The notes under the pieces are model-generated. The model was not told where the DNA came from and made no database searches. It saw only the letters and a program-made list of their open reading frames with translations. A stretch of DNA of 64,000 nucleotides from Comamonadaceae bacterium OS-1 (GTDB lineage Bacteria > Pseudomonadota > Gammaproteobacteria > Burkholderiales > Burkholderiaceae_C), in the NCBI GenBank assembly GCA_027923965.1, contig AP026969.1, positions 992,001 to 1,056,000 of the forward strand. Reading direction: 5' to 3'. Shown one piece after another: positions 3,496 through 29,996 of the stretch (position 1 is the first letter of the stretch; the number at the start of each line of letters is the position of its first letter). Made by a program: the position numbers and the translations under genes.

Positions 3496-4455
3496 CTAGC
3501 GTATTAACCCCGCGCGGGACAACGTGGCGGCGGCCAGGCTGGCGGGCACAGCTTCCACCCGGTTGCGGCCCAGGTGCTTGGCGCGGTAGAGCTGCTTGTC
3601 CACTGCGTCCAGAAAGTCCGCCATGCTGGAATCCGCTCCCGGAATGCAGGTGCCCACGCCCAGGCTGGCGGTAAGCTGGCCCAGGGGCGAGCCTTGGTGG
3701 GCAATCTGTAGCTGGGCCAGCAGGTTGCGGCAGCGTTCGGCGATTTTCAGGGCGGCTGTGGCATCGGTTTCGCTCAGCACCAGCACAAATTCTTCGCCGC
3801 CATAGCGGCCCACAAAGTCGCGTGACCGGGTGGCCGCCGAGGCCAGGGTCTGGGCGACCAGCTTCAGGGTGTCGTCGCCCTTGAGGTGGCCGTAGTGGTC
3901 GTTGTAGGGCTTGAAGAAGTCGATGTCCAGCATGATCACCGACAGCGGCTGGTGGTTGCGCCGGGCGTTGCCCCATTCGATCTCCATGATGGAGTCGAAC
4001 AGCCGCCGGTTGGCAATGCCGGTGAGGCCGTCCTTGAAGGACAGCTCTTCCAGCTCTTTTTGCAGGGTGATGAGTTTTTCTTCGGTCTTCTTGCGTTCGC
4101 TGATGTCGAACATGAAGCCCACCAGCGCCTCCACCTCGCCATCTTTGCGCACCACGTGCACTACGTCGCGGATCCACACGTAGCCGCCGTCCTGGGTGAG
4201 GGCGCGGTAGTCGGCCTCGTGGTCTACCCCGGCCTGGGACTGGCTGACGCAGAAGTTGAAGGTTTCCTCGCGGTCCTCTGGATGCATGCGGTCGGCCCAG
4301 TCTTGCGCGCCCACCCAGCTTTCGGGGCTCCAGCCCAGTAGCGCTTCGATTTGCGGGCCGATGTAGGTGAACTTCAGGGTTTTCCAGTCGATCCGCCAGG
4401 GGATGGCTTGGGTGGATTCGAGCAAGGTCTTGTAGACGGAGGGGTCAATGTCCAT
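3496..4455 (-). CDS. PAS-GGDEF diguanylate cyclase
   Basis: The 319-residue cytoplasmic protein has a PAS fold (residues ~10-125; WSPESWVGAQDWADRMHPED is typical of the PAS_3 subtype, ending DISERKK), a short coiled linker, and a GGDEF domain (~145-305). The active-site motif is GGEEF, and an RSRD (RxxD) inhibitory site lies five residues before it, so it is probably an active c-di-GMP synthase with product feedback. The substrate-binding DIDFFKPYNDHYGH is intact. The PAS ligand is unknown. No neighbouring gene suggests a target. Confidence 0.93.
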   Translation of the reverse strand: MDIDPSVYKTLLESTQAIPWRIDWKTLKFTYIGPQIEALLGWSPESWVGAQDWADRMHPEDREETFNFCVSQSQAGVDHEADYRALTQDGGYVWIRDVVHVVRKDGEVEALVGFMFDISERKKTEEKLITLQKELEELSFKDGLTGIANRRLFDSIMEIEWGNARRNHQPLSVIMLDIDFFKPYNDHYGHLKGDDTLKLVAQTLASAATRSRDFVGRYGGEEFVLVLSETDATAALKIAERCRNLLAQLQIAHQGSPLGQLTASLGVGTCIPGADSSMADFLDAVDKQLYRAKHLGRNRVEAVPASLAAATLSRAGLIR

Positions 4456-4558
4456 GGGGCAGTGCGATGAAAAAGTCGCAGCTTACCGCATTTGTGCAAA
4501 TTTGTAACAAGTTGTACTGATTCCCTATTTCACCCAGAAGGAATTTATAGGAAATCGG

Positions 4559-4605
4559 CCTCCAGTGCTTACTCCATCAGCACAAGAAGCTATAAAAACA
4601 GGAGT
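4559..4605. repeat. Dispersed palindromic repeat, copy 1
   Basis: The plus strand reads CCAGTGCTTACTCCATCAGC followed by ACAAGAAGCTAT, the same element found in about 13 other places in this window (core, in the other orientation: GCTGCTTGCGCTGATGGGAT). It lies between the PAS-GGDEF gene and the 3' end of the PAP2 gene, three bases from the PAP2 stop codon. Confidence 0.8.
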
Positions 4606-4607
4606 AT

Positions 4608-5273
4608 TCAGACCCCGGGCGGCGTGGGCACTGCATGCAGGTCGGCCCGCCGAAACGGCTTATCGTGGCCAGACAGGCGCAGCGCCAACTGCGTCACCAT
4701 ATCGTGCGACCGGGACGGGGCAGCTTGTACCGGCATCACCCCCAGCCAGCCCAGCAGCGCCAAAAGCACCCAGCGGTGCGGGCGCGGATGGGGTGCGTCC
4801 AGCGTGCGCGACAGACGCCAGATCGTCCAGCCGCTGGTGCTGGCACCCAGGGCCAGACCCGCCACCACTTCGGACACAGAATGCACCTGGATGTGGACCC
4901 GGCTCCAGCCAATCACCAGCGCCAGGGCATAGCCCGCCAGCGGCGCCCAAAAACGGGCTTTGGGCTGCTGGCTCGCCTGCGCGGCCAGTACGTAGGCCAC
5001 CACCGGGTAGATGGCCGCCGAGAACATCGCATGGCCCGAAAACCCGGTGAAATCCATCGCCGCAATGCCTAGGCCCCAGCCGATAAACGCGACTTTGGAC
5101 AGGGTGGTGATGCCCACCGCCAGCCCCAGCGGCAGCAGCCACTGCACCACCGGGCGGATGGCGCGGGTGGTCGCCAGCATCCACAGCGTGAGCGCCGCGG
5201 CCAGTGGCACGACGATGCCGATCTCGCCAAAACGGGTGATCCAGTAGGGGGCTTTGGCGATGAAGAAGTCCAT
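4608..5273 (-). CDS. PAP2-like membrane protein with a degenerate active site
   Basis: The 221-residue protein has several membrane segments and PAP2 phosphatase landmarks: FSGHAMFSA (SGH, residues 79-81) and SRVHIQVHSVSEVVAG (SR...H, residues 124-131). The usual first motif (KxxxxxxRP) is not visible beyond a lone Lys60, and the Asp that normally polarises the nucleophilic His is Glu135. It may still be a lipid or small-molecule phosphatase, or an altered family member. A hydrophobic segment after residue 160 is followed by a soluble C-terminal tail. It stands alone, divergent from the CBS-domain gene. Confidence 0.75.
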   Translation of the reverse strand: MDFFIAKAPYWITRFGEIGIVVPLAAALTLWMLATTRAIRPVVQWLLPLGLAVGITTLSKVAFIGWGLGIAAMDFTGFSGHAMFSAAIYPVVAYVLAAQASQQPKARFWAPLAGYALALVIGWSRVHIQVHSVSEVVAGLALGASTSGWTIWRLSRTLDAPHPRPHRWVLLALLGWLGVMPVQAAPSRSHDMVTQLALRLSGHDKPFRRADLHAVPTPPGV

Positions 5274-5416
5274 GGGTGGATTTTATTGCAGTGCAACATG
5301 GCTTGGGAGGGCCGCGCAGGCGCATTTCCTGCCGTGCCATAGGCGTTTGTGGGCTATATTGCAAGCACATCTGTCACTTATCCATCCATTGCGCTCTGCG
5401 TTACCAGGAGAACCCC

Positions 5417-5869
5417 ATGAAAGTCAGCGACATTCTGCGTGTGAAAGGCAATACGCTCTATACCGCCAGCCCCGACGAGCCGCTTGCGACCGCCCTGGCC
5501 ATGATGGCGGAGAAGGACATGGGTTCCCTGGTCATCATGTCGCATGGCGACCTGGTGGGCATGCTGACCTTTCGCGAGGTGATCCAGCTGGTGGTGAAAA
5601 ACGGCGGCACCATTGGCACCACCCTGGTCCGTACCGCCATGGACGACCACCCCCTGACCTGCACCCCCAACACCGAGCTGGACGATGTGCGCCGCATGAT
5701 GCTGGAGCGCCACGCCCGCTACATGCCGGTGATGGACGGCAAGATGCTGATGGGTGTGATCAGCTTCTACGATGTGGCCAAGGCCGTGGTGGACAGCCAG
5801 AATTTCGAGAACAAGATGCTCAAGGCCTACATCCGCGACTGGCCGGCGGGCGAAGAAGAAGGTTCTTAG
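5417..5869 (+). CDS. Tandem CBS-domain protein
   Basis: This 150-residue protein consists almost entirely of two CBS domains (about residues 8-62 and 75-130): MGSLVIMSHGDLVGMLTFREV and ARYMPVMDGKMLMGVISFYDV are the typical CBS strand-helix units. Such small Bateman modules bind adenine nucleotides and act as energy sensors or partners of other proteins. CAGGAG sits 7 nt before the ATG; the earlier ATG at 5276 would add a peptide without family resemblance. A strong bidirectional terminator follows. Confidence 0.88.
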   Translation: MKVSDILRVKGNTLYTASPDEPLATALAMMAEKDMGSLVIMSHGDLVGMLTFREVIQLVVKNGGTIGTTLVRTAMDDHPLTCTPNTELDDVRRMMLERHARYMPVMDGKMLMGVISFYDVAKAVVDSQNFENKMLKAYIRDWPAGEEEGS

Positions 5870-5912
5870 TTTTTGCTCACCCCCAGGTCCCTGGGGGAGT
5901 TCAGCATCTTTT

Positions 5913-5968
5913 AGGCTGCTCGTGCTTACTCAATGGGCGTGAGCAGCTACTAAATATATAGCGATTGA
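5913..5968. repeat. Dispersed palindromic repeat, copy 2
   Basis: The plus strand reads CGTGCTTACTCAATGGGCGT then GAGCAGCTACTA and a terminal TATAGCGATT, a diverged member of the dispersed family. It lies just after the CBS gene and just before the rho-independent hairpin. Confidence 0.65.
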
Positions 5969-5980
5969 TTTTTGGCATAA

Positions 5981-6010
5981 AAAAAGCCCGGTGTTTCCAC
6001 CGGGCTTTTT
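5981..6010. terminator. Bidirectional rho-independent terminator
   Basis: A 13-bp perfect stem (AAAAAGCCCGGTG / CACCGGGCTTTTT) with a TTTC loop lies between two convergent genes. The A-run and T-run allow it to end both the CBS transcript (plus) and the phaZ transcript (minus). Confidence 0.92.
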
Positions 6011-6015
6011 GCTGT

Positions 6016-7239
6016 TCAAAGCTGGTTGGCGTAGATCATGTCGCGCACGCGGGGGTAGATCTGCTGGTTCCACTTCTTGCCGCTGAACACGCCGTAGTGG
6101 CCCACGCCGGTCTGGATGTGGTGGGTGCGCTGGCTGGGGCGCACGCTGCTGGCCAGGTCCTGGGCAGCCATGGTCTGGCCGACCGAGCAGATGTCGTCGC
6201 GCTCGCCTTCCACCGTCATCAGCGCGGTGCGGCGGATGGCGGCGGGATTCACGATGCGGTCCTTGTAGGTGAGCACGCCCCGGGGCAGGTCGTAGGTCTG
6301 GAACACCTTGGCCACCGTTTCCAGGTAGAACTCGGCGGGCAGGTCGTTGACGGCCAGGTACTCGTCGTAGAAGTTGCGGATGGTGTCGGCCTTCTCGATA
6401 TCGCCTTCCAGCAGGTATTTGTACATGTCCTTGAACTGGGCTTTGTGGCGGGCCGGGTTCATGCTCAGGAACGCGCTGAGCTGGATGAAGCCCGGGTATA
6501 CCCGGCGCATGAAGCCCTTGTGCGGCAGGGGCACGTGGGTGATCAGGTTCTTTTCAAACCACTCGATGGGCTTGCTCACCGCCAGGGTGTTGACCCCGGT
6601 GGGGTTGATGCGGCAGTCCACCGGGCCGGCCATCAAGGTGAGGCTGCGCGGCTGGCAGGGGTTGTCGTCCTCGGCCATGATGGCGGCAGCGGCCAGCGCG
6701 GCCACACAGGGTTGGCACACGGCCACCACATGGGTGCCGGGGCCGATGGCCTCGATGAAGCGGATCATGTGCTCGGCGTAGTCGTCCAGCGCAAAGCCGC
6801 CGTCGGTGAGCGCCACATCGCGGGCGTTGTGCCAGTCGGTGATATACACGTCGTGGTCTTGCAGCAGGGTGCGCAGGGTTTCGCGCAGCAGCGTGGCGAA
6901 GTGGCCCGACAGCGGGGCTACCAGCAGCACCGGGGGCTGGTCGTCCATGTCCACCGCGTCGCCCGTGCGCTTGAAATGCAGCAGGCTGCCAAAAGGCAGG
7001 GTGAGGGTGGTTTCTTCCGTCACCGCCACCTCGACATGGCCCACTGTGACCGATGTGATGCCGTAGCCGGGCCGTGAATGGGTGAGTCGCAGGCGTGAAA
7101 ACACATCGCAGGCGGCGGCCATTTTGCGCACCGGGCTGTTTTCTGTGTCTTTGAACCAGAGCGACGCGCCAAGGCTTTGCGCCATCAGGCGCAGCGGCGA
7201 CATCAAGTCGGACTGGAGTTGGTAGGCCTGGTAGAGCAT
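6016..7239 (-). CDS. phaZ: Intracellular poly(3-hydroxybutyrate) depolymerase
   Basis: The 407-residue protein begins MLYQAYQLQSDLMSPLRLMA, the conserved start of the cytoplasmic PhaZ family of Cupriavidus and relatives. It carries VVAVCQPCVAA around residues 171-180, the lipase-box-like site in which Cys (here Cys175) replaces Ser as nucleophile. An oxyanion/loop region (LLVAPLSGHFATLLRETLRT) and DVYITDWHNAR are also conserved. It mobilises the carbon-storage polymer PHB to hydroxybutyrate oligomers. There is no signal peptide, as expected for the intracellular form. It is monocistronic, with a terminator 5 bp downstream of its stop. Confidence 0.93.
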   Translation of the reverse strand: MLYQAYQLQSDLMSPLRLMAQSLGASLWFKDTENSPVRKMAAACDVFSRLRLTHSRPGYGITSVTVGHVEVAVTEETTLTLPFGSLLHFKRTGDAVDMDDQPPVLLVAPLSGHFATLLRETLRTLLQDHDVYITDWHNARDVALTDGGFALDDYAEHMIRFIEAIGPGTHVVAVCQPCVAALAAAAIMAEDDNPCQPRSLTLMAGPVDCRINPTGVNTLAVSKPIEWFEKNLITHVPLPHKGFMRRVYPGFIQLSAFLSMNPARHKAQFKDMYKYLLEGDIEKADTIRNFYDEYLAVNDLPAEFYLETVAKVFQTYDLPRGVLTYKDRIVNPAAIRRTALMTVEGERDDICSVGQTMAAQDLASSVRPSQRTHHIQTGVGHYGVFSGKKWNQQIYPRVRDMIYANQL

Positions 7240-7376
7240 GTGTGTTATTCCTGACTTGGTGCGGGGTGTGCACCATCTACAGGCAAGTTACGGGCCACTT
7301 ACCAGGGGAAGGCTAGAGGTGGTTCTCCATTTGGCAGGGCGTAAGTAGAAATACGGATTTGGATGCGCGCAGGCTC

Positions 7377-7391
7377 TGGCACAACCCTTGC
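7377..7391 (+). promoter_or_regulatory. Sigma-54-like -24/-12 promoter
   Basis: TGGCAC, five bases, then TTGC (followed by T) matches the sigma-54 consensus exactly in sequence and spacing (GG to GC 12 bp apart). The predicted start would be near 7403, between this box and the AAGGAG ribosome-binding site of the downstream GST-like gene. No enhancer-binding protein is encoded nearby. Confidence 0.65.
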
Positions 7392-7420
7392 TGAAAGCTC
7401 AACAACACAAGGAGCTACCC

Positions 7421-8077
7421 ATGCGCAAAGCAGAGTTGACGATCAGCAGCAAAAACTACGGTGCCTGGGCTCTGCGCGGGTGGCTCGCCGCCAAGTTTGC
7501 CGGGCTAGAGTTCACCGAAAATGTGGTCTCTCCTGATGATCCGGCCATGAAAGCCGAGATGATGTTGCTGTCGTCCTCGATGCTGGTGCCCTCCTTGCAG
7601 CACAACAAGATCAAGGTCTGGGACACGCTGGCCATTGGCGAATACCTGAATGAAATCAAGCCCAAAGCCGGTTTGCTCCCTGCTGATCCAGCCGCCCGCG
7701 CCCACTGCCGCGCCATTTGCGGTGAGATGCACTCGGGCTTCTCTTCGCTGCGTACGGCACTGCCGATGAACATCAAGGCGCACTTCTCCGAATTCAAAAT
7801 CTGGTCGCGCGCGCAGGCCGACATCGACCGCATCGTCGAGATCTGGAAAGAGTGCCTGGCCAACTACGGCGGCCCCTATCTCTTTGGCGAGCAAGTGGGT
7901 ATGGCCGATGCCATGTACGCCCCGGTGGTCACCCGCTTTCTGACCTACAACGTGGCGCTGGACCCGGTGTGCGCCGCCTATTGCCAGCGCATCATGGCCT
8001 TGCCCGCCATGCAGGAGTGGGTGGCCGAGGCGATGAAAGAGCCGGAAGAAATCGACGAACTCGACGCAGAGTTCTGA
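7421..8077 (+). CDS. Glutathione S-transferase family protein
   Basis: The 218-residue protein has a thioredoxin-like N-terminal domain (TISSKNYGAWALRGWLAAK, then MLVPSLQ before the cis-Pro and KVWDTLAIGEYL, equivalent to the GST ESxAI glutathione contact) and an all-helical C-terminal domain. Its substrate is unknown; GSTs of this kind take part in detoxification or stress. The start is fixed by AAGGAG 6 nt upstream. A sigma-54-like promoter 30 bp upstream of the ATG is unusual for the family and hints at nitrogen, phage-shock or other activator-dependent control. Confidence 0.88.
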   Translation: MRKAELTISSKNYGAWALRGWLAAKFAGLEFTENVVSPDDPAMKAEMMLLSSSMLVPSLQHNKIKVWDTLAIGEYLNEIKPKAGLLPADPAARAHCRAICGEMHSGFSSLRTALPMNIKAHFSEFKIWSRAQADIDRIVEIWKECLANYGGPYLFGEQVGMADAMYAPVVTRFLTYNVALDPVCAAYCQRIMALPAMQEWVAEAMKEPEEIDELDAEF

Positions 8078-8129
8078 CCAGGGCGGGCGGGGGATTTCGG
8101 GTCCCCTGCCTGCTGTCCCTGCTGTAGCC

Positions 8130-8552
8130 TTACTTCCAGGGTGTGGATTCGGGAACCTCGCAGACCGGCTCCACATCGACCGACTTGAAATCGGCGGGCG
8201 ACACGATTTCCAAATACTCCATATCGGGCGAGTAATCGAACAGGTAGTGGCGGATGCCCGGGCGCTGGTGCACACAGTCACCGGCCTGCACCAGGGTCTC
8301 TTTGTCTTCGTACATGAAGCGCGCCCAGCCCTTGACCATGATCACGATCTGAAAATCCGCCTCATGCCGGTGCCAGCCCGTGCCCTTTTCTGGAGCCATA
8401 TTCGCCTTCACAAGGTGCGCAATCACCTTTCCGTGCGTGGCCTCGGCAATGCCAAGATCGCGGTACAGAAAAAAGTCGCGTAAACCGCCTTGGACAAAAT
8501 CAGTGTCGCCGGGTTTGACGTGGGAAAACTCGGTCGTGGTTGCTTGCAGCAT
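8130..8552 (-). CDS. Single-domain cupin protein
   Basis: The 140-residue protein carries the two cupin motifs: GTGWHRHEADFQIVIMVKGW (residues ~57-76, with metal-binding His-x-His and Glu) and GDCVHQRPGIRHYLFDYS (~92-110). It is probably a small metal-binding beta-barrel enzyme or sensor; the substrate cannot be predicted. It is convergent with the GST gene and divergent from aroC. Confidence 0.85.
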   Translation of the reverse strand: MLQATTTEFSHVKPGDTDFVQGGLRDFFLYRDLGIAEATHGKVIAHLVKANMAPEKGTGWHRHEADFQIVIMVKGWARFMYEDKETLVQAGDCVHQRPGIRHYLFDYSPDMEYLEIVSPADFKSVDVEPVCEVPESTPWK

Positions 8553-8663
8553 GGGCCTCTCCTGGGTGGATGTAAGTGAAAACCCGCGTGGGGTGCGACG
8601 CTATAAGCATGAACTGTTCCCAAGTTTGGGCAGCATCCTCTACCTCGGGGATAATCGGCAGCT

Positions 8664-9761
8664 ATGAGCGGAAATACCTTCGGAACCCTATTCGCAGTCA
8701 CCAACTTTGGTGAATCCCACGGCCCAGCCATTGGCTGCGTGATCGACGGCTGCCCCCCCGGCATGGCCTTGTGCGAGGCCGACATCCAGGCCGACCTGGA
8801 CCGCCGCCGTCCCGGCACCAGCCGCCACGTCACCCAGCGCAACGAGCCCGACGCGGTCGAAATCCTGAGTGGCGTGTACGAGGGCAAAACCACCGGGACC
8901 CCCATCGCCCTGCTGATCCGCAATGCCGACCAGCGTAGCAAGGATTACAGCGCCATTGCGCAGAGCTTTCGCCCCGGCCACGCCGACTACACCTACTGGC
9001 ACAAGTTCGGCATCCGTGACCCGCGTGGCGGTGGCCGCTCGTCCGCCCGCCTGACCGCACCCACCGTGGCTGCTGGTGCCGTGGCCAAAAAATGGCTGGC
9101 AGAGAAGTACGGCATGGTGTTTCGCGGCTGCATGACCCAGGTAGGTGACCTGGTGGTGCCGTTCGAGAGCTGGGACCACGTGCCCAACAACCCGTTTTTC
9201 GCCCCGGTGGCCGACGTGTCGGCACTGGAAGACTACATGGATGCCCTGCGTCACGCCCAGGATTCCTGCGGTGCACGCATCCGCGTCACCGCCACCGGCA
9301 TGCCCGTGGGCCTGGGTGAGCCGCTGTTTGACAAGCTCGATGCCGACATCGCCTTCGCCATGATGGGCCTGAACGCTGTCAAAGGCGTGGAGATCGGTGC
9401 CGGCTTTGCCAGCGTGGCCCAGCGCGGCAGCATGCACGGTGATTCGTTGTCGCCGCAGGGCTTCCGAACCAACAACGCGGGCGGCGTGCTCGGCGGCATC
9501 AGCACCGGCCAGGACCTGGAAGTGTCCATCGCCATCAAGCCCACCAGCTCCATCACCACACCCCGTGAGACCATCGACACGGCAGGCCATTCCACCGAAG
9601 TCATCACCAAAGGCCGCCACGACCCCTGCGTAGGCATCCGCGCCACCCCCATCGTGGAAGCGCTGCTGGCCCTGGTGGTGATGGAACACGCCTTGCGCCA
9701 GCGTGCGCAGAATGCCGATGTGGTGCAGGCGGTGGGGCCGATTGCGGCATCGGCGGGCTGA
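8664..9761 (+). CDS. aroC: Chorismate synthase
   Basis: At 365 residues this matches AroC length. It starts [20 protein letters not shown], the first AroC signature, and contains [34 protein letters not shown] and [16 protein letters not shown], all conserved FMN/EPSP-binding segments. It converts 5-enolpyruvylshikimate-3-phosphate to chorismate with reduced FMN, the last shared step of aromatic amino-acid synthesis. It is apparently monocistronic; its stop is followed directly by a dispersed repeat. Confidence 0.98.
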
Positions 9762-19544: not shown

Positions 19545-20213
19545 TTACTGGGCGTGCTGGGTCACCAACATTCCCTTGGTTTCGATAAAGGCCACCACCT
19601 CGGCCAAGCCACTGAGCGTCTTTAGGTTGGTCATGACAAACGGTTTGAGACCCTGGGCATTGGTGCGCATACGGCGGGTGTCCGATTCCATTACGTCCAG
19701 GTTCGCGCCCACGTGGGGTGCCAGGTCGGTTTTGTTGATGACGAACAGGTCGCTCTTGGTGATGCCGGGGCCGCCTTTGCGGGGGATTTTTTCGCCTGCG
19801 GCCACGTCGATCACGTAGATGGTGAGGTCGCTGAGCTCGGGGCTGAAGGTGGCGGCCAGGTTGTCACCGCCGCTTTCGATAAACACGATGTCGGCATTGG
19901 GATGCTCGACCAGCATGCGGTCAATGGCTTCCAGGTTGATGGAGCAGTCTTCGCGGATGGCGGTGTGCGGGCAGCCGCCCGTTTCCACGCCCATGATGCG
20001 CTCGGCGGGCAGGGCACCGCTGACGGTCAGGATGCGCTGGTCTTCCTTGGTGTAGATGTCGTTGGTGATCGCAACCAGATCGTATTTTTCGCGCATGGCT
20101 TTGCACAGCATTTCCAGCAGCGTGGTTTTGCCGGAACCCACCGGGCCGCCAATGCCGACGCGCAGCGGGGGGAGTTTTTTGGTGCGGTGGGCGATGTGGT
20201 GCAGAGTGGACAT
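19545..20213 (-). CDS. ureG: Urease accessory GTPase UreG
   Basis: At 222 residues the protein matches UreG. It has the P-loop [10 protein letters not shown] (residues 22-31), the [15 protein letters not shown] and CPH motif ([18 protein letters not shown]) that binds nickel at the dimer interface, and [12 protein letters not shown] as the GTP-specificity NKxD motif. It delivers nickel to apo-urease by GTP-driven transfer, in a complex with UreF and UreD in known systems. It is the last gene of the urease operon, separated from ureF by a dispersed repeat. Confidence 0.98.
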
Positions 20214-20220
20214 GGTGTTT

Positions 20221-20272
20221 TGCTATTGAAAAAAGAGCTGCTTGTGCTGATGGGATAAGCGCTAGGACCTGA
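20221..20272. repeat. Dispersed palindromic repeat, copy 4 (between ureF and ureG)
   Basis: The plus strand reads TGCTATTGAAAAAAGAGCTG then CTTGTGCTGATGGGATAAGC and GCTAGGACC, a near-consensus copy. The TAG stop of ureF (20262-20264 on the minus strand) lies inside it, and the ureG start codon follows 8 bp from its other end. Confidence 0.9.
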
Positions 20273-21026
20273 AAAGCCTTGAATATTGCACTTCGTGCTG
20301 GCTACTCAGAATGGCCAGCATGGGCGAAAACGCCTGGCGCTGGCTGTCGGGGATCTGGGTGGCGCGGTCTACTGCCGCAGGAATGTCGGCGGCCAGGCGC
20401 GCCAGGATGCGCTGCCCTGCGCTTTGGCCCAGCGGCACGGATTTGATGGCCGACTGCGTCATATTTTCGGCCCAGCCAAAGGCGTAGGCCAGCAGGCAGT
20501 CTCGCAGCGGGGCCTGGGTGGCTGCAGCGGCCAGGGCGTAGGCGATGGGGTAGGTGGGCTGCATCTGGGCGCAGGCCGCTATCTGCGTGGGTGTGGCCGT
20601 GTCGTGGTTGCGCAGCCATTCCAGCAAGGAGCGGCCCATCTGCTCGGTCTGGGCGCGCAGTTCGCTGGTTTCGCGGGTCTGCAGTACCCAGGCGTTGAGC
20701 TCGGCCACATGGGTCAGATCACCGCGCCGCCAGGCGGGTATGGCCTTGGCGATGGCGGCCAGGTCGCCCCGGGTCAGCGCTAGGTGCAGTTGGTCGATCA
20801 GCCAATCGGATGCTGCACTTTCTGTAGCTACTCCTGCCCTGTCTACCGCCGCTTCCAGCCCTTCAGAATAAGAAAATCCGCCTACCGGCAGGGCGGGCGA
20901 TGCCAACCAGATCAGCTGCAGCAGGCTGGGCGTGGCCGATTCTGGCGGACTGGCGGCGTGGCTAGCGGCTCTGGCCGGGCGGCGGCGGACCGGTGGCACC
21001 AGCGGGCGGACTCTGCGCACGGTCAT
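20262..21026 (-). CDS. ureF: Urease accessory protein UreF
   Basis: About 254 residues with [24 protein letters not shown], the hallmark start of UreF, and later [23 protein letters not shown]. UreF is an all-helical partner of UreD and UreG in nickel loading. I chose the ATG 4 nt after the ureE stop; this gives a ~35-residue Arg/Pro-rich N-terminal extension before the conserved core, so a later start is possible. The stop codon is contributed by a dispersed repeat. The operon order (E then F then G) is typical. Confidence 0.95.
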
Positions 21027-21030
21027 GGGA

Positions 21031-21603
21031 TCAGTGGGAATGGCCGTGCCCATGGTCATGCCCGCAGCCAGGGCCGTGGACGTGCGGGGCGGCTTTGACC
21101 GGAATGGACACGGGCTTCGGTGCCGGATGTTCGTGGCCATGGCTGTGTCCGCCCGCCGCGTAGGCACCGCCTTCGGGCTCAAACGCCACCGTGGCTTCCA
21201 CCACCGTCAAATGCATGGCGCGCAGCATCTCGGCCAACACATGGTCGGGTTCGATCTTCAGGTGGTCGGGCTGCAGCTCGATCGGCACATGGCGGTTGCC
21301 CAGGTGGTAGGCGGCGCGGGTCAGGTCGAAAGGTGTGCCGTGTCCGTGGATGGTAATGACCAGCACCGGCTGGGGAGCCGCCACCACCTGGACCAGGGAA
21401 CCGTCTTCCACCACCAGTACGTCGCCGCCGCGCACCAGCGTGCCGCGGGGCAGGAAAACGCCGAGCTGGCGGCCCAGGGAGTCGGTGGCATCGAAGCGGC
21501 TTTTTTGCCGCACGTCCCAGTCCAGTTCGACGGTGCTGCCACGTTTGAGCAGGGCAGGGGCCAGGCCTTTGCCTTGGGGAATGAGTTTGGAGGTTTGGAG
21601 CAT
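21031..21603 (-). CDS. ureE: Urease accessory nickel chaperone UreE
   Basis: The 190-residue protein has the UreE peptide-binding N-terminal domain ([17 protein letters not shown] region) and a metal-binding domain with [12 protein letters not shown], containing the conserved dimer-interface His, followed by a His-rich tail (HSHGHEHP and a terminal [10 protein letters not shown]) that stores or delivers nickel. The start [10 protein letters not shown] was chosen for family length. It is separated from ureC by about 1.3 kb holding a Uma2 nuclease gene and a toxin-antitoxin pair, which is unusual. Confidence 0.97.
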
Positions 21604-21620
21604 GGGGCTGGGGTTGAAAT

Positions 21621-22178
21621 TTAAAAAGTGATCGTTGCGTACAGGTCTTCGACCGTCAGCACCATGGGTAGGCACAGAAAAGAAATGTTGTCACCCGCGC
21701 CGAGTTGGCTGTGGCCCCATTCGCGCAGGTTGACGCGGGCGTAGTGGTCTACGCGGATTTCGTCTTGCGACACGATCAGGTATTCGCGCAGCGTCGGTAG
21801 CTTGGTGTAGGCGGCAAACTTCTCGCGCCGATCGATGGCCTCGGTGCTGGGCGAGCTGATCTCAGCCACCATGCAGGGCTGGGTTTTGCACATCGGGTCG
21901 TTGTCTTCCGCGTGGCAAATCAGCATCACGTCGGGGTAGTAGTAAGTGTGTCCGCCTTCCAGACGCAAGCGCATGTCTCCCATAAAGGGGCGGCAGCCAG
22001 AGTCTTTGCGGGCTGCGTGGCACGCGGCGAACAGATTGCCCGCTAGGGTGTTGTGGCGCTCTGATGCTCCGGCCATGGCGTACGCCACGCCGTTCACAAG
22101 CTCGTGCTTTTCCGTGGCAGCGTTTTCAGCAGCCAGGTAGTCCTCTTCGGAAAAAGGTTTGACCAGTGCGTAACCCAT
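21621..22178 (-). CDS. Uma2-family putative endonuclease (DUF820, PD-(D/E)XK fold)
   Basis: The 185-residue protein has the Uma2/DUF820 outline: FSEEDYLAAENAATEKHELVNG, then MRLRLEGGHTYYYPDVMLIC (the PD of the nuclease core) and MVAEISSPSTEAIDRREKF (the ExK-like part). Members are presumed restriction-like nucleases, widespread in cyanobacteria and scattered elsewhere; function is largely unproven. GGGAG 6 nt before the ATG fixes the start. It lies in the same direction as the urease genes, 17 nt upstream of ureE, and divergent from the abrB-doc pair, hence probably inserted with it. Confidence 0.85.
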   Translation of the reverse strand: MGYALVKPFSEEDYLAAENAATEKHELVNGVAYAMAGASERHNTLAGNLFAACHAARKDSGCRPFMGDMRLRLEGGHTYYYPDVMLICHAEDNDPMCKTQPCMVAEISSPSTEAIDRREKFAAYTKLPTLREYLIVSQDEIRVDHYARVNLREWGHSQLGAGDNISFLCLPMVLTVEDLYATITF

Positions 22179-22238
22179 GTTTACTCCCGGGGTAGTTTGG
22201 CGATAATATAACAAACGTTATAACTTTAGGGGTTCGCT

Positions 22239-22463
22239 ATGGCTGCACTCAAATTGACCCAAATCGGCAACTCGGTGGGGGTGATCTTGCCTAAAGAACT
22301 GCTCACGCTGCTCAAGTTGGAGAAGGGTGACTCGGTATTCTGGACCGAGGCGGCCAACGGGGTGATGTTGACTCCTTACGACACCGAGTTTGAAGACCAG
22401 ATGACCGAAGCGCGCAGCATCATGAAGAAGCGCCGCAACGTGCTGCGGGAATTGGCCAAATGA
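22239..22463 (+). CDS. AbrB/MazE-type antitoxin of a Doc toxin
   Basis: A 74-residue protein with a SpoVT-AbrB swapped-hairpin domain (LKLTQIGNSVGVILPKELLTLL) and an acidic/helical C-terminus that would thread onto the toxin. The family is typical for antitoxins paired with Doc. The ATG of the next gene overlaps its stop by 4 nt (ATGA). The gene points against the surrounding urease genes and has its own short AT-containing promoter region (22179-22238) shared with the divergent Uma2 gene. Confidence 0.9.
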   Translation: MAALKLTQIGNSVGVILPKELLTLLKLEKGDSVFWTEAANGVMLTPYDTEFEDQMTEARSIMKKRRNVLRELAK

Positions 22464-22858
22464 GCCAGCCCAAGTCCGGCTGGCGTTGGCTGAGCCCGGA
22501 TGTCATGCGGGCCGTGCACGAAGAGCAATTGGCCGAACATGGCGGCGGCACGGGCGTGCGGGATGCGAACCTCTTTGCCTCTGCCATGGCTCGACCCCAG
22601 CAACTGGCGAACTATGCCGAACCCGATGCAGCAGACTTGGCGGCCAGCTACGGCTTTGGTATTGCCCGCAACCATCCGTTTGTGGACGGCAACAAGCGTA
22701 CGGCCTTTGTGGCGGTGGAGCTGTTTTTGGCGCTGAACGGCCATGCCTTGACCGCAGCCGATGCCGATTGCGTTTTCACCATGCTCGACGTGGCTATGGG
22801 CAAACTGGAAGAGGCTGCCTTCGCAGCCTGGATTCGGCAGCACCTGCAGGCTCTTTGA
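22460..22858 (+). CDS. doc: Doc toxin (Fic/death-on-curing family)
   Basis: The 132-residue protein has the Fic/Doc catalytic motif HPFVDGNKRTA (His72), the Doc-type active site. Doc kinases phosphorylate elongation factor EF-Tu in the known phage P1 system. The motif is complete, so the toxin is potentially active. The gene ends only 3 bp before the convergent ureC stop codon, so it sits tightly packed within the urease locus. Confidence 0.95.
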   Translation: MSQPKSGWRWLSPDVMRAVHEEQLAEHGGGTGVRDANLFASAMARPQQLANYAEPDAADLAASYGFGIARNHPFVDGNKRTAFVAVELFLALNGHALTAADADCVFTMLDVAMGKLEEAAFAAWIRQHLQAL

Positions 22859-22861
22859 GTT

Positions 22862-24579
<1,718 letters not shown>

Positions 24580-24580
<1 letters not shown>

Positions 24581-24885
24581 CAGAGTTTTCCTTGCACTAG
24601 TCCGCGAAATCCATACACCGTGCGGTCGCCCGCGTAATCCACCAGTTCCACCGTGCGCTGCTGGCCGGGCTCAAAGCGCACCGCGCTGCCCGACGCAATG
24701 TTCAGCCGCATGCCCTGGGCGGCGGCCCGGTCGAAGCCCAGCGCGCCATTGGTTTCGGCAAAGTGGTAGTGGCTGCCCACCTGGATGGGCCGGTCTGCGG
24801 TGTTGTTGACCACCAGGGTGACGCTGCGCCGCCCGGTGTTGAGCGGGTGTTCGCCGTCGTCTACCAGCAGTTCGCCGGGGGTCAT
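24580..24885 (-). CDS. ureB: Urease beta subunit
   Basis: The 101-residue product starts [19 protein letters not shown] and has [14 protein letters not shown] and [17 protein letters not shown], all conserved in UreB. I rejected a longer open frame because the ATG chosen overlaps the stop of the upstream small gene (ATGA coupling) and matches the family start. Its stop overlaps the ureC start by one base. It is the structural subunit that packs against UreC. Confidence 0.98.
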
Positions 24886-25074: not shown

Positions 25075-25377
25075 TCACACAATGGGTTGATGGACCGTGA
25101 CGAGCTTGGTGCCGTCCGGGAAGGTGGCTTCCACCTGGATGTCGGGAATCATCTCGGCGATGCCGTCCATCACGTCGGCGCGGGTCAGGATGTTGCGGCC
25201 TGCGCTCATCAACTGGGCTACGCTCTGGCCGTCACGCGCGCCTTCCATCACCGCGGCGCTGATGAAGGCGATCGCTTCGGGGTAATTCAGCTTCAGGCCC
25301 CGGGCTTTGCGCCGCTCGGCCAGCAGGGCGGCGGTGAAGATCAGCAGCTTGTCTTTCTCTCGGGGCGTGAGTTCCAT
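25075..25377 (-). CDS. ureA: Urease gamma subunit
   Basis: The 100-residue product [20 protein letters not shown]... with [24 protein letters not shown] and [18 protein letters not shown] is a standard UreA. It is the first gene of the urease operon here. No ureD gene precedes it; instead the upstream 88 bp separate it from the divergent permease-kinase gene, so this short region must hold the promoters of both. Confidence 0.98.
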
Positions 25378-25465
25378 AGGATCTTTAAAGTTGTGACTTA
25401 TTCCACGCATTATTAAGCAAGCGGTATGCCTTAGCCCTACGCCAAATGGCGCACAAGCTTGGTGC

Positions 25466-28400
25466 ATGGCTGGGCACAAAAGCTGCGAAGATCGTGCAGT
25501 GACCGATTCCGACCTTACTCCCCTGTCTCCCCTGAACGATGCCCCCCAGCAGGTGGTGAAGATCCGGCGCGACTACAACAGCTGGGTGGCCAGCGAGACC
25601 CTGGAAGACTACGCCCTGCGCTTTGCCCCGCAGCGCTTTCGCAAGTGGTCCGAGTGGCGGGTGGCCAACACGGCGTTCGGCGCGGCATCGTTTTTGATTC
25701 TGGAGGCCGTGGGGGCCACCTTGCTGGTGCAGCACGGTTTTGTGAATGCCTTCTGGGCGATTGTGGCCACCGGGCTGATCATCTTTCTGGCCGGGCTGCC
25801 CATCAGCATCTACGCCGCCCGCTGCGGGGTGGACATGGACTTGCTCACCCGCGGCGCAGGCTTTGGCTACATCGGCTCCACGCTCACCTCGCTGATCTAC
25901 GCGTCCTTCACCTTCATCTTCTTCGCGCTGGAGGCCGCGGTGATGGCCTACGCGCTGGACCTGTCGCTGGGCATACCGCCGCGCTGGGGCTATTTGATTT
26001 GCGCGCTGGTGGTGATTCCGCTGGTCACGCACGGCGTGTCCATGATCAGCCGCCTGCAGGTCTGGACCCAGCCGCTGTGGCTGGTGCTGCTGGTGGTGCC
26101 GTTTGCCTACGTGTGGATGCGCGAACCAAGCGCGTTTGCCGGGGTGCTGCACTATGGTGGTGTGGCCGGGCATGCCGATACCTTCAACCTGCTGTCGTTC
26201 GGCGCGGCGCTCACCGTGGGCATTGCGCTCATCACCCAGATGGGCGAGCAGGCCGACTACCTGCGCTTCATGCCCGCCTACACGGCTGCCACGCGCCGCC
26301 GCTGGTGGCTGGGCGTGCTGGCGGGCGGGCCGGGCTGGGTGCTGCTGGGGGTGCTGAAGATGCTGGGCGGCGCGCTGTTGGCCTACCTGGCCATCACCCA
26401 CATGGTGCCGCCCGAGCGCGCGGTGGACCCCAACCAGATGTACCTGGCGGCCTATGAATACGTGTTCCCGCAGTACGGCTGGGCGGTGGCGGCCACGGCC
26501 TTGTTTGTGGTGCTGTCGCAGCTCAAGATCAATGTCACCAATGCCTACGCCGGGTCGCTGGCCTGGTCCAACTTTTTCTCGCGTATCACACACAGCCATC
26601 CGGGCCGGGTGGTGTGGGTGGTGTTCAACACGCTGATCGCCTTCATGCTGATGGAGATGAACGTGTTCGAGGCGCTGGGCGACGTGCTGGGGCTGTACTC
26701 CAACCTCGCCATCGCCTGGATCATGGCCGTGGTGGCCGACCTGGTCATCAACAAGCCGCTGGGCCTGTCGCCGCCGGGCATCGAGTTCAAGCGCGCGTAT
26801 TTGTACGACATCAACCCGGTGGGCGTGGGCGCGATGGCGCTGGCTTCTACCCTGTCGATGCTGGCCTACCTGGGCCTGTTCGGGCCGATGGCGCAGGCGT
26901 TTTCGGCGGTGATCGCCCTGGGCACGGCCATGGTCGCCTCGCCCTTGCTGGCCTGGTGGACCCAAGGCCGTTACTACATCGCCCGTGGGCCCCAGTCGGA
27001 TTGGAAAGGCATCACCCAGCCGATGGCCGACGATAGCTACCAGCGCCTGCGCGTACAGCGCTGCGTGATCTGCGAGCGCGAATACGAAGCGCCCGACATG
27101 GCCCATTGCCCCGCCTACCAGGGCGCGATCTGTTCGCTGTGCTGCACGCTGGATGCGCGCTGTGGCGACCTGTGCAAACCCCAGGCCAGCCTGAAAGTGC
27201 AGTGGGCGGCAGCGCTGCGCTGGCTGCTGCCCCAGCGCGCCTGGCCCTACCTGGAAACCGGGCTGGCGCACTTCATTTTGCTGATGCTGGTGGTGGTGCC
27301 GATTTTGGCTGCGCTGTTTGGATTGCTATATTTTCAAGAGCTGCAAGCGCTAGTCCAATCAGCGGTAGAGGCCGATTTTGATCCCGGTTCTGCGCTGCGT
27401 TCCGGCTTCGTCAAAGCCTATATGGCCCTGGTGCTGATGGCCTGCATCGTGGCCTGGTGGTTTGTGCTGGCGCACAAAAGCCGCCAGGTGGCGCAAGAAG
27501 AATCGAACCGCCAAACCCATTTGCTGCAGCGCGAAATCGCCTCGCACGCGCAAACCGACAAGGCCCTGCAAGCGGCTACCTTGGTGGCAGAGCAGGCCAG
27601 AGCCCAGGCGGACCAGGCCAACCAGGCGAAAAGCCGCTACATCAGCGCCATCAGCCACGAGCTGCGCACCCCGCTCAACAGCATCCTGGGCTACGCACAG
27701 CTCATGGGCGAAGACACCGGCGTGCCACCGCACCGGCAGCAGGCCATCGGCGTCATCAAGCGCGGCGGCGAGCATTTGCTGTCGCTGATCGAAGGCACGC
27801 TGGACATTGCCCGCATCGAGTCCGGCAAGCTCACCTTGGCCACCCGGCCCATGCCGTTTGCCGACCTGCTGCACGAAATGGCCGAGATGTTCGAACCCCA
27901 GGCCCGCGCCAAGGGCCTGGCTTTCCACTTCGACCCGCAGGGCGTGCTGCCCGAGCAGGTACGTGCCGACGAAAAGCGCCTGCGCCAGATCCTCATCAAC
28001 CTGCTGGGCAACGCCATCAAGTTCACCGCCACCGGCCGGGTGCGCCTGCGCGCCCGCTACGCGCTGGAGATGGCCTTCATCGAGATCGAAGACACGGGGC
28101 CCGGCATGCACGCCGACGAGCTGGCGCAGGTGTTTGAGCCCTTCGAGCGCGGTGCATCCCCGGGCAGTGGCGGCGCGGGCCTGGGCCTGACCATCGCCAA
28201 AATGCTCACCGACCTGATGGGTGGCGAGATGACCGTGGTCAGCACGCCCGGCAGCGGCTCGGTGTTCCGCGTCAAGCTCTTCCTGCCCGAAATCCACGGT
28301 GCCGACCTCAAAACCGTGCAGCGCAGCACCCCGCGCCTGCGCCGCGCCTACGTTGGCCCGCGCCGCAAGCTGCTGGTGGTGGACAACGAAGAACCCGACC

Positions 28401-29002
28401 GCGAGCTGCTGGTGCAGCTGCTGCAACCCCTGGGCTTCGAAGTGCGCACCGCCGCCAGCGGCCATGACGCGCTGGATCTGCTGGCTGCCGGGTACCAGCC
28501 GGATGCCGTGCTGATGGACCTGGCCATGCCCGGCATCGACGGCTGGGAAACGATAAGACGCATCAAGGCGGATGGGCTCACGCAAGCGCACGTGGCGATC
28601 GTCTCCGCCAACGCCTTCGACAAAGGCCTGGAGAACGATGTCGGCATCCGGGTGGACGACTTCATCACCAAACCCGTGCGCCATAGCGAGCTGCTGGACT
28701 GGCTGGAACGCCGCCTGCAGCTCCAGTGGGTAGAGGCCCCCGCCGTGGCCGAGGCGGTGCCCGCCGCACCGGTGCTGCGCGTCTGGCCCGACGCGGCCCG
28801 CCTGCAGGCGCTGCGCCAGGTGGCCGAACTGGGCTTTTACCGGGGTATCCTCAACCAGTTGGCCGCGCTGGAACAGGCGCAGCCCGCATGCCGGGGCCTG
28901 GCGCAGGAAGTGCGCACCCTGGCCCAACAATTCCAGTTTGAAGCCATCGGTCGCCTGCTGGCCCAGGCACCCGCCAGCCCAGATACCACCCATGCTCCCT
29001 GA
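25466..29002 (+). CDS. NCS1-type permease fused to a hybrid histidine kinase
   Basis: An 1178-residue fusion. Residues ~30-520 form a 12-segment nucleobase:cation symporter-1 (cytosine/purine/allantoin family) domain ([50 protein letters not shown]). Residues ~533-575 are Cys-rich ([25 protein letters not shown]). Two more membrane segments precede a coiled coil and a HisKA domain ([10 protein letters not shown], His731), HATPase, and a receiver (MDLAMPG, Asp1018). The start is uncertain: ATG at 25466, or GTG at 25499. It lies divergent from ureA, so it may sense a purine breakdown product or urea and control urease (inference). Residues ~619-638 are encoded by a dispersed repeat. Confidence 0.9.
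27321..27379. repeat. Dispersed palindromic repeat, copy 5 (inside the kinase gene)
   Basis: The plus strand reads ATTGCTATATTTTCAAGAGC then TGCAAGCGCTAGTCCAATCA and GCGGTAGAGGCCGATTTT, aligning along its whole length with the intergenic copies. It is read in frame as [20 protein letters not shown] between two membrane segments of the sensor kinase. Confidence 0.85.
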
Positions 29003-29996
29003 ACCCGAAGCCATCCTCGACCGCAGCAACTCCGACGTGGTGCTCATCGTCGACGACGTACCCGACAACCTGGCCGTGCTGCACGACGCGCTGGACGAAT
29101 CCGGCTACACCGTCCTCGTCGCCACCCGCGGCGAAACCGCCTTGCAGCGCGCCGCCCAGGCCCTGCCCGACATCGTGCTGCTCGACGCGATGATGCCCGG
29201 CATGGACGGCTTCGAAGTGGCCCGTCGCTTGAAAGCCAACCCGGCCACCGCCCACATCCCCATCATCTTCATGACCGGCCTCACCGAGACCGAGCACCTG
29301 GTGGCCGCGCTGGAGGCGGGTGGGGTGGACTATGTCAACAAGCCCATCAAGCCCAAGGAAGTGATGGCCCGCATGAACGTGCACCTGCAAAGCGCCCGCC
29401 GCGCCCGCCAGCAGGTCCACCAGGCCGGCCAGGCCCGCAACGCGCTGGACGCTTTCGGCTACGCCAGCATCACCGTGCGTGCCAGCGACGGCAAGCTGAT
29501 GTGGCAAACCCCGCTGGCCCGCGACCTGCTGCGCGACTACTTCGGCACCAGCGCTCCCCAAACTCCGCCGCTCGTGGTGGACTGGCTGCAGCAGCACCTA
29601 CCCGCCGCCCGGCAGCAGATCGAACCCCCGCGCCTGAGCGTGGAGCAGGGCGCACGGCGGCTCAGCTTTCGCCTGCACCAGCAAACCGGCGATGGGGAAG
29701 GTGACGGGGAGGGTGAGGGCGATTGGCTGATCGTCATGCGCGAGGTGTCCGACGCGGCGGTGATTGAAGCCATGAGCCTGAGCTTCAAGCTCACCACCCG
29801 CGAAGCCGAGGTGCTGTACTGGGTGGTCAAGGGCAAAACCAACCGCGACATTGGCGAGATCCTGGGCAGCAGCCCCGCCACCGTGAAGAAGCACCTGGAG
29901 CGCGTCTACGTGAAGATGGGGGTCGAAACCCGCACCGCCGCCGCCGGGGTGGCCATGACCAAGATCCGCCAGCTGCACCCGCAGTTTGAGGGCTGA
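28992..29996 (+). CDS. REC-LuxR type response regulator, partner of the permease-kinase
   Basis: The 334-residue protein has an N-terminal receiver (LIVDDVPDN; phospho-acceptor Asp65 in LLDAMMPGMDG; Lys117), a ~130-residue middle region of unknown fold, and a C-terminal LuxR/NarL helix-turn-helix (LTTREAEVLYWVVKGKTNRDIGEILGSS...VKKHLERVY). The ATG overlaps the end of the kinase gene by 11 nt, so the two form a unit. The middle region has a low-complexity run (GDGEGDGEGEGD). It presumably regulates urease or nitrogen-related genes. Confidence 0.92.
   Translation: MLPEPEAILDRSNSDVVLIVDDVPDNLAVLHDALDESGYTVLVATRGETALQRAAQALPDIVLLDAMMPGMDGFEVARRLKANPATAHIPIIFMTGLTETEHLVAALEAGGVDYVNKPIKPKEVMARMNVHLQSARRARQQVHQAGQARNALDAFGYASITVRASDGKLMWQTPLARDLLRDYFGTSAPQTPPLVVDWLQQHLPAARQQIEPPRLSVEQGARRLSFRLHQQTGDGEGDGEGEGDWLIVMREVSDAAVIEAMSLSFKLTTREAEVLYWVVKGKTNRDIGEILGSSPATVKKHLERVYVKMGVETRTAAAGVAMTKIRQLHPQFEG

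Follow-up and report, generated by a model that had tools for sequence, protein, structure and literature searches.

The window, a stretch of 64,000 nucleotides from the genome of Comamonadaceae bacterium OS-1 (contig AP026969.1, positions 992,001 to 1,056,000), carries a kinase–regulator gene pair that is divergent from ureA, the gene for the urease gamma subunit. The first gene of the pair encodes a protein in which an NCS1-type permease is followed by a hybrid histidine kinase, and the second encodes the partner response regulator. The window genome (5.1 Mb, single contig) contains one copy of the permease-kinase. The organization of the pair is as follows, with residues numbered from ATG 25466.

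25499..29002, + strand: NCS1-type permease/hybrid histidine kinase gene; GTG 25499 is the likelier start, and the open reading frame (ORF) is open from ATG 25466
25598..26980, + strand: NCS1-fold permease domain, residues ~45-505
27062..27177, + strand: Cys-rich, zinc-ribbon-like module, C533xxC536 ... C556xxC559; fused proteins add C566xxxC570
27260..27577, + strand: two further long helices, residues 599-632 and 640-704, from the secondary structure of the predicted model
27626..27826, + strand: HisKA domain (Pfam) with phospho-acceptor motif SHELRTPLN (H731), the motif invariant in 21 aligned rows
27968..28285, + strand: HATPase_c domain (Pfam)
28373..28702, + strand: receiver domain of the hybrid kinase with probable acceptor D1018 (Pfam, alignment)
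28992..29996, + strand: response regulator, REC plus LuxR/GerE-type helix-turn-helix; ATG 28992 is the likelier start, and the ORF is open from TTG 28938

The protein is a hybrid histidine kinase, with HisKA, HATPase_c and receiver domains in a single chain and with the H and D motifs intact. Its partner, the gene of which overlaps the kinase gene by 11 bp, is a LuxR/NarL-type regulator with a REC domain, a GerE helix-turn-helix and, in the Pfam scan, no AAA+ domain. As judged from the predicted model, the helices of residues 599-632 and 640-704 are probably two membrane spans leading into the kinase.

A preliminary description of the window had proposed that the N-terminal part of this protein is an NCS1-type permease, and comparison of folds and of sequence profiles confirmed that the fusion is real and of this type. 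The predicted fold of residues ~45-505 is LeuT-type and closest to the NCS1 carriers CodB and Mhp1; among the matches listed in the structure comparison, NCS1 structures scored 36.4 and 31.1 as against 23.3 and lower for SSS-type structures. A significant profile relation was detected by hhalign against five ordinary NCS1 permeases (97.2%, E 3.9e-11). The identity of the permease domain to CodB and Mhp1 is 14-18%, PDB sequence searches with the single window protein and with the A3 profile gave nothing meaningful, and a search of a viral structure library gave distant carriers only. In the Pfam scan no transporter model, PF02133 included, matched the N-terminal half of the protein at E ≤ 1; PF02133 is carried by some free-standing relatives (e.g. 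P0169 and P0184). In a sequence-level alignment of about 20% identity, the position of the Trp in NCS1 transmembrane segment 3 (TM3) is occupied by F in 23 of 28 rows and by L in the other 5, and the segment aligned to TM6 has no aromatic residue, with Q258 in all 28 rows. The TM6 aromatic residue stacks on the base in CodB and Mhp1 and is described as conserved across NCS1 (PMC9379551). Conservation of the segments that align with the NCS1 substrate site (TM3, TM6 and TM8) extends over fused as well as free-standing forms.

The Cys-rich module is likewise shared, as C533, C536, C556 and C559 occur in fused members as well as in the alignment-A2 set of free-standing permeases. Free-standing permeases are mostly 530-566 residues long and end soon after the CxxC...CSLC pair, and the fused kinases lengthen the module by CxxxC, followed by the two long helices. 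Both CxxC pairs were found in five of six free-standing permeases with known neighbours, indicating that the module belongs to the permease family and is not an addition of the kinase. The exception is the Arthrobacter permease (L094 8013-9689), in which the tail is kept and both CxxC pairs are lost, so that a metal site, if any, must be dispensable in some members. The free-standing permease of Methylovirgula has the extended Cys tail otherwise typical of fused kinases. From its sequence the module may bind zinc.

For the gene neighbourhood, the best 80 of 587 loci were taken as close relatives; counts among them were not based on ORF clustering, confounded by antisense ORFs in GC-rich DNA. 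A divergent ureA was located less than 1 kb away in 65 of the 80 loci and 3-7 kb away in six more. Five loci without ureA have less than 1 kb of upstream sequence, and four lack it despite at least 1 kb (L021, L030, L057 and L059). In L030 urtABCDE lies downstream of the kinase pair, and in L057 a second kinase–regulator pair adjoins urtA and urtB; in L021 and L059 none of the marker genes was detected in the stretch scanned. The partner regulator was present in 78 loci, the other two ending within 101 bp.

Wider sampling gave a similar picture. In the window's order, 53 of 300 genomes matched, with 50 strong places (at least 600 bits) in 48 genomes; in the phylum, 45 of 299 genomes matched, with 42 strong places (at least 540 bits) in 38 genomes, 31 of the places being outside the window's order. 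These counts leave aside G164, G259, G530 and all weaker matches. We scanned 76 loci (40 from the order sample and 36 from the phylum sample, including all 31 outside the order) with marker proteins; copies already found beside ureC in G000, G049, G264 and G204 were omitted from this set, as was G091. At least one of ureA, ureC, urtA and fmdA was detected in 34/40 and 34/36 loci, as compared with 0/20 control regions hand-picked at round-number positions in the same genomes, and the partner regulator was detected in 36/40 and 32/36 loci. With UreC positions added, 43 of 49 places of the order sample (G091 excluded) are near urea or amide genes. The tie to urea metabolism suspected in the preliminary description is thus far beyond chance. 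Two loci, L157 and L158 (G061 and G068), carry a divergent NCS1-kinase ORF of about 1400 residues with no LuxR partner detected, followed in L158 by a cytidylyltransferase-NUDIX gene that we read as NadM-like; these divergent kinases perhaps sense another ligand. Shorter NCS1-kinases, with an open frame of 894-899 residues and again no LuxR partner detected, were found near fmdA in L220 and L222 (G395 and G496).

Annotated regions were then compared (18 in all; two further records carry no annotation). Fused pairs face urtABCDE-fmdA in Methylobacterium, Azospirillum, Paraburkholderia, Chelatococcus and Paracoccus, and face or adjoin urtABCDE in Shinella, Sinorhizobium (with three small genes between), Methylosinus (with ureDABC behind) and Thioclava. 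The pair of Sphingobium follows ureDABC-FG genes, and that of Mitsuaria faces ureA. Free-standing permeases occupy corresponding settings: inside the urease cluster in Acinetobacter, directly after ureG in Klebsiella, opposite fmdA in Moraxella and preceding an aliphatic amidase in Arthrobacter. On a Methylovirgula plasmid (L095 3257-9590), fused kinase, regulator and free-standing permease lie side by side between formamidase and amidase genes.

In an unrooted FastTree tree of 128 permease domains, in which 20 of the 80 loci L002-L081 plus L057 are represented, fused and free-standing forms are split by one change (support 96). The window falls in a clade of 43 rows (support 99), 34 of which have urease genes in the stretch examined, the context labels standing for presence of a gene and not for adjacency; the most frequent context of the remaining fused rows is urt-fmd. 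The preliminary description would have taken it as contrary evidence if the architecture were common far from urease genes, and on this point the outcome is divided: copies in the clade of the window mostly adjoin urease genes, and copies elsewhere mostly adjoin urtABCDE-fmdA. Because the latter genes serve urea or short-amide uptake and formamidase, the link is to urea and short amides and not to urease alone. Both kinds occur together in two genomes of the same family as the window, G204 and G264, where one copy stands beside ureC and the other faces urt-fmd (L133 and L134), a pattern suggesting specialised paralogues, plausibly one for urea and one for formamide/acetamide.

Two promoter-like elements were identified between ureA and the kinase gene by scoring against the sigma54 consensus, with -24 GG and -12 GC elements near TGGCAC-N5-TTGCW.

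25472..25487, + strand: sigma54-type -24/-12 element GGGCACAAAAGCTGCG facing the kinase, 8/11 consensus positions
25416..25431, - strand: sigma54-type -24/-12 element AGGCATACCGCTTGCT facing ureA, 9/11 consensus positions

Elements facing both ways were counted in 59 loci (58 plus the window; 22 of the 80 loci, in which one of two anchor motifs is lacking, were left out), with control stretches drawn at random from the real sequence of these loci and matched in length. They were present in 56 loci at 8/11 or better (control 3.65), in 49 at 9/11 or better (control 0.71) and in 19 at 10/11 or better (control 0.14). With another delimitation of the region, both elements were found in 62/66, and shuffles gave about 7.5 per single strand. 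Within the genus the two elements are kept as blocks while the surrounding DNA varies, and Mitsuaria has both at 9/11. Outside the window's lineage, sigma54-type pairs were detected in two of seven kinase-facing regions (L096 and L098), against a control mean of 0.40, with 31 of 500 draws as high. RpoN is present, and in the window's lineage both ureA and the kinase gene are probably switched on in nitrogen shortage by an NtrC-type activator. An exact match to the NtrC dyad pattern GCAC-N7-GTGC was found at 25451-25465, near the kinase-side element, and is not conserved: the exact dyad occurs in one of the 59 loci, the window itself (control 0.7), and a dyad with one mismatch in 17 (control 10.3). 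Since the exact site is in the window alone, NtrC-type dyads were dropped as evidence. The kinase-side element lies inside the ORF opened at ATG 25466, and in many loci the GTG start is 11-12 nt past the -12 element. GTG 25499 is the likely start because in L183 an insertion parts the kinase-side element from the GTG corresponding to 25499; if this promoter is used, the kinase mRNA would be almost leaderless, which is odd.

Among known systems, the closest in plan are the SLC5-STAC kinases CbrA, CrbS and PrlS, in which a small module joins an N-terminal LeuT-fold carrier to a histidine kinase. PrlS, like the window protein, is a hybrid kinase with a LuxR-family partner (PMC7918813). Unlike that of CbrA and CrbS, the window carrier domain is not SLC5-type as judged by structure scores, and its linker is a Cys-ribbon with strands, with no STAC match in the Pfam scan, the model set of which may lack STAC. 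Ks-Amt5 is similar in that a nutrient carrier has become the sensor part of a fused histidine kinase responding to a small nitrogen compound, and differs in having an Amt fold, a trimeric core, a kinase limited to DHp and CA, and ammonium as ligand (PMC5764959). CodB and Mhp1 share the fold and differ at the aligned TM3 and TM6 positions and by the absence of the CxxC...CxxC tail and of a fused kinase. MetT, a free-standing NCS1 metformin carrier with a substrate without heterocycle, is likened here by description, not by sequence comparison (PMC13390362). The closest known gene setting is that of the urtABCDE-fmdA/amiE amide clusters (PMC13209695, PMC13296017). In the latter work a LuxR-family two-component regulator stands beside one urtABCDE operon, next to an fmdA locus tag, and a figure legend lists a hybrid kinase; the available parts of both papers describe neither a transporter domain in the kinase nor a kinase function. 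The ammonia-sensing system GrtK/GrtR was ruled out, its PilS-like membrane domain being of a different kind (PMC12918730). Among the literature matches listed, in a coverage that leaves most subscription journals outside, we found no account of an NCS1-kinase fusion, nor, among the matches listed, any described urea carrier in the NCS1-type permease family.

These observations altogether favour, with a probability of about 0.62, the view that the fused protein works as a sensor kinase derived from a transporter (a transceptor), its ligand being urea or a short amide close to it. Its basis is the anatomy, the predicted fold, the conserved neighbourhood, the conserved promoter-like elements and the free-standing relatives in urease and amidase loci; we infer the ligand, the direction of signalling, the target of the regulator, the metal in the Cys module and the activity of the promoters. 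A carrier re-used as receptor matches the anatomy, as in Ks-Amt5 (PMC5764959) and CbrA (PMC13022988, PMC7096432, PMC7918813), and the neighbours and the free-standing relatives argue for urea and short amides as the ligand. The NCS1-fold domain would bind the amide and may import it too; binding or turnover would shift the Cys-ribbon and the two extra helices joined to HisKA, and altered phosphorylation of the kinase and its own receiver would set that of the partner regulator, which would tune the adjacent urease promoter region. The pair would thereby add an input for the presence of substrate on top of NtrC-type control by nitrogen shortage. A sigma54 promoter needs an AAA+ activator, for which a LuxR-type regulator without AAA+ cannot substitute, so that at ureA the kinase–regulator pair probably modulates rather than switches. 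At urt-fmd promoters its action may be more direct.

Several points weigh against the transceptor reading. As the LuxR-type partner cannot open a sigma54 promoter alone, any control of ureA by the pair may be indirect or minor; the window's own elements are also among the weaker ones (8/11 and 9/11). The alignment of about 20% identity behind the binding-site argument is weak. No marker was detected in 8 of the 76 loci (L135, L136, L138, L141, L157, L158, L198 and L223), three of which, L136, L198 and L223, are contigs or stretches shorter than 12 kb. In L135 (G111, 3849-8940) the neighbours of the pair are genes of the nifH, nifD and nifK types and a DRAT gene, and the 20-kb stretch scanned there contains no urea marker; this is another nitrogen-source setting. 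No urea or amide gene lies within 8 kb of a free-standing relative in Streptomyces, and a Klebsiella plasmid kinase, followed by a transposase, has no such neighbour within 15 kb. Because the genomes are related, conserved synteny and promoters do not amount to independent evidence, and the loci counted are not separate events.

The carrier part of such a fusion is not necessarily the sensor, since CbrA transports a substrate that does not significantly affect its kinase activities (PMC7096432). The permease domain could accordingly be a mere carrier or anchor, with the kinase sensing another cue (redox or zinc through the Cys-ribbon, nitrogen status, or a cytoplasmic signal) and with the locus co-regulated with urease mainly via sigma54/NtrC. 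The conserved facing sigma54-type elements and the conserved Cys module between permease and kinase would suit this alternative, which we nevertheless hold to be unlikely: the Cys pairs, as noted, are a trait of the carrier family and not a kinase-specific sensor, and the link to urea and amides persists outside the lineage, where sigma54-type pairs are not established (2/7 regions). An NCS1 domain that binds the amide and no longer transports it is a variant of the transceptor reading with overlapping odds, and has a substantial though clearly smaller chance. Ks-Amt5 gained a sensing site and lost transport (PMC5764959), and dedicated importers (urtABCDE) or a free-standing copy stand beside many fused copies; conservation of the TM3, TM6 and TM8 segments in both forms, and transport by CbrA, speak for retained transport. 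Alternatively, the NCS1 domain might recognise a compound that precedes urea when purines are broken down (a nucleobase, allantoin or hydantoin, which were among the compounds first considered for the window), so that the kinase would anticipate urea formation; this we hold to be quite improbable. The fold is closest to the carriers of cytosine (CodB) and hydantoin (Mhp1), and free-standing relatives are named allantoin or cytosine permease in databases, but these names look automatic, and the NCS1-wide TM6 aromatic is missing from the aligned segment. Across the 18 annotated regions the genes that recur nearby are urt, fmdA, fmdB, amidase and ure genes, pointing to urea, formamide and acetamide, whereas a xanthine-dehydrogenase-type operon occurs in one of them, purine genes having been sought in the annotated regions only. 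MetT, moreover, is an NCS1 carrier for a non-heterocyclic compound (PMC13390362).

The urease cluster faced by the pair in the window is composed as follows.

25075..25377, - strand: ureA, urease gamma subunit (start MELTPREK)
24580..24885, - strand: ureB, urease beta subunit, start inferred
22862..24580, - strand: ureC, urease alpha subunit
21031..21675, - strand: ureE, ORF extent
20262..21182, - strand: ureF, ORF extent
19545..20213, - strand: ureG

The sole UreD match in the genome is at C1:2854788-2855393, about 1.8 Mb from this cluster, and the best UrtA match (89% identical, C1:2877487) is about 22 kb from ureD. An ORF that we read as adenylate-cyclase-like adjoins the distant ureD. Between ureC and ureE, in antisense orientation, there is a Fic/DOC-family gene (22460-22858, + strand), followed by a Uma2-type nuclease-like ORF (21621-22214, - strand); among the 80 related loci, 15 have a Fic homologue in the urease cluster.

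Urea is a major fertiliser and waste product, and to our knowledge its sensing outside the cell by bacteria is largely open. We tentatively propose, at slightly less than even odds, a widespread class of NCS1 transceptor-kinases that sense urea and C1-C2 amides outside the cell and may have arisen once, from a free-standing amide permease with a zinc-ribbon tail, with urea-type and formamide/acetamide-type paralogues controlling ure and urt-fmd, respectively. If so, about one in eight of the sampled phylum genomes (38/299) would carry a dedicated carrier-derived receptor for urea or amides, and signalling by transporter-kinase fusions, open for CbrA, would become approachable with a ligand that is small and inexpensive. 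On this reading the 'cytosine/allantoin permeases' that stand free in the urease clusters of Klebsiella and Acinetobacter would be urea importers, and a function would be found for a permease family that is encoded beside urease genes and probably mis-annotated.

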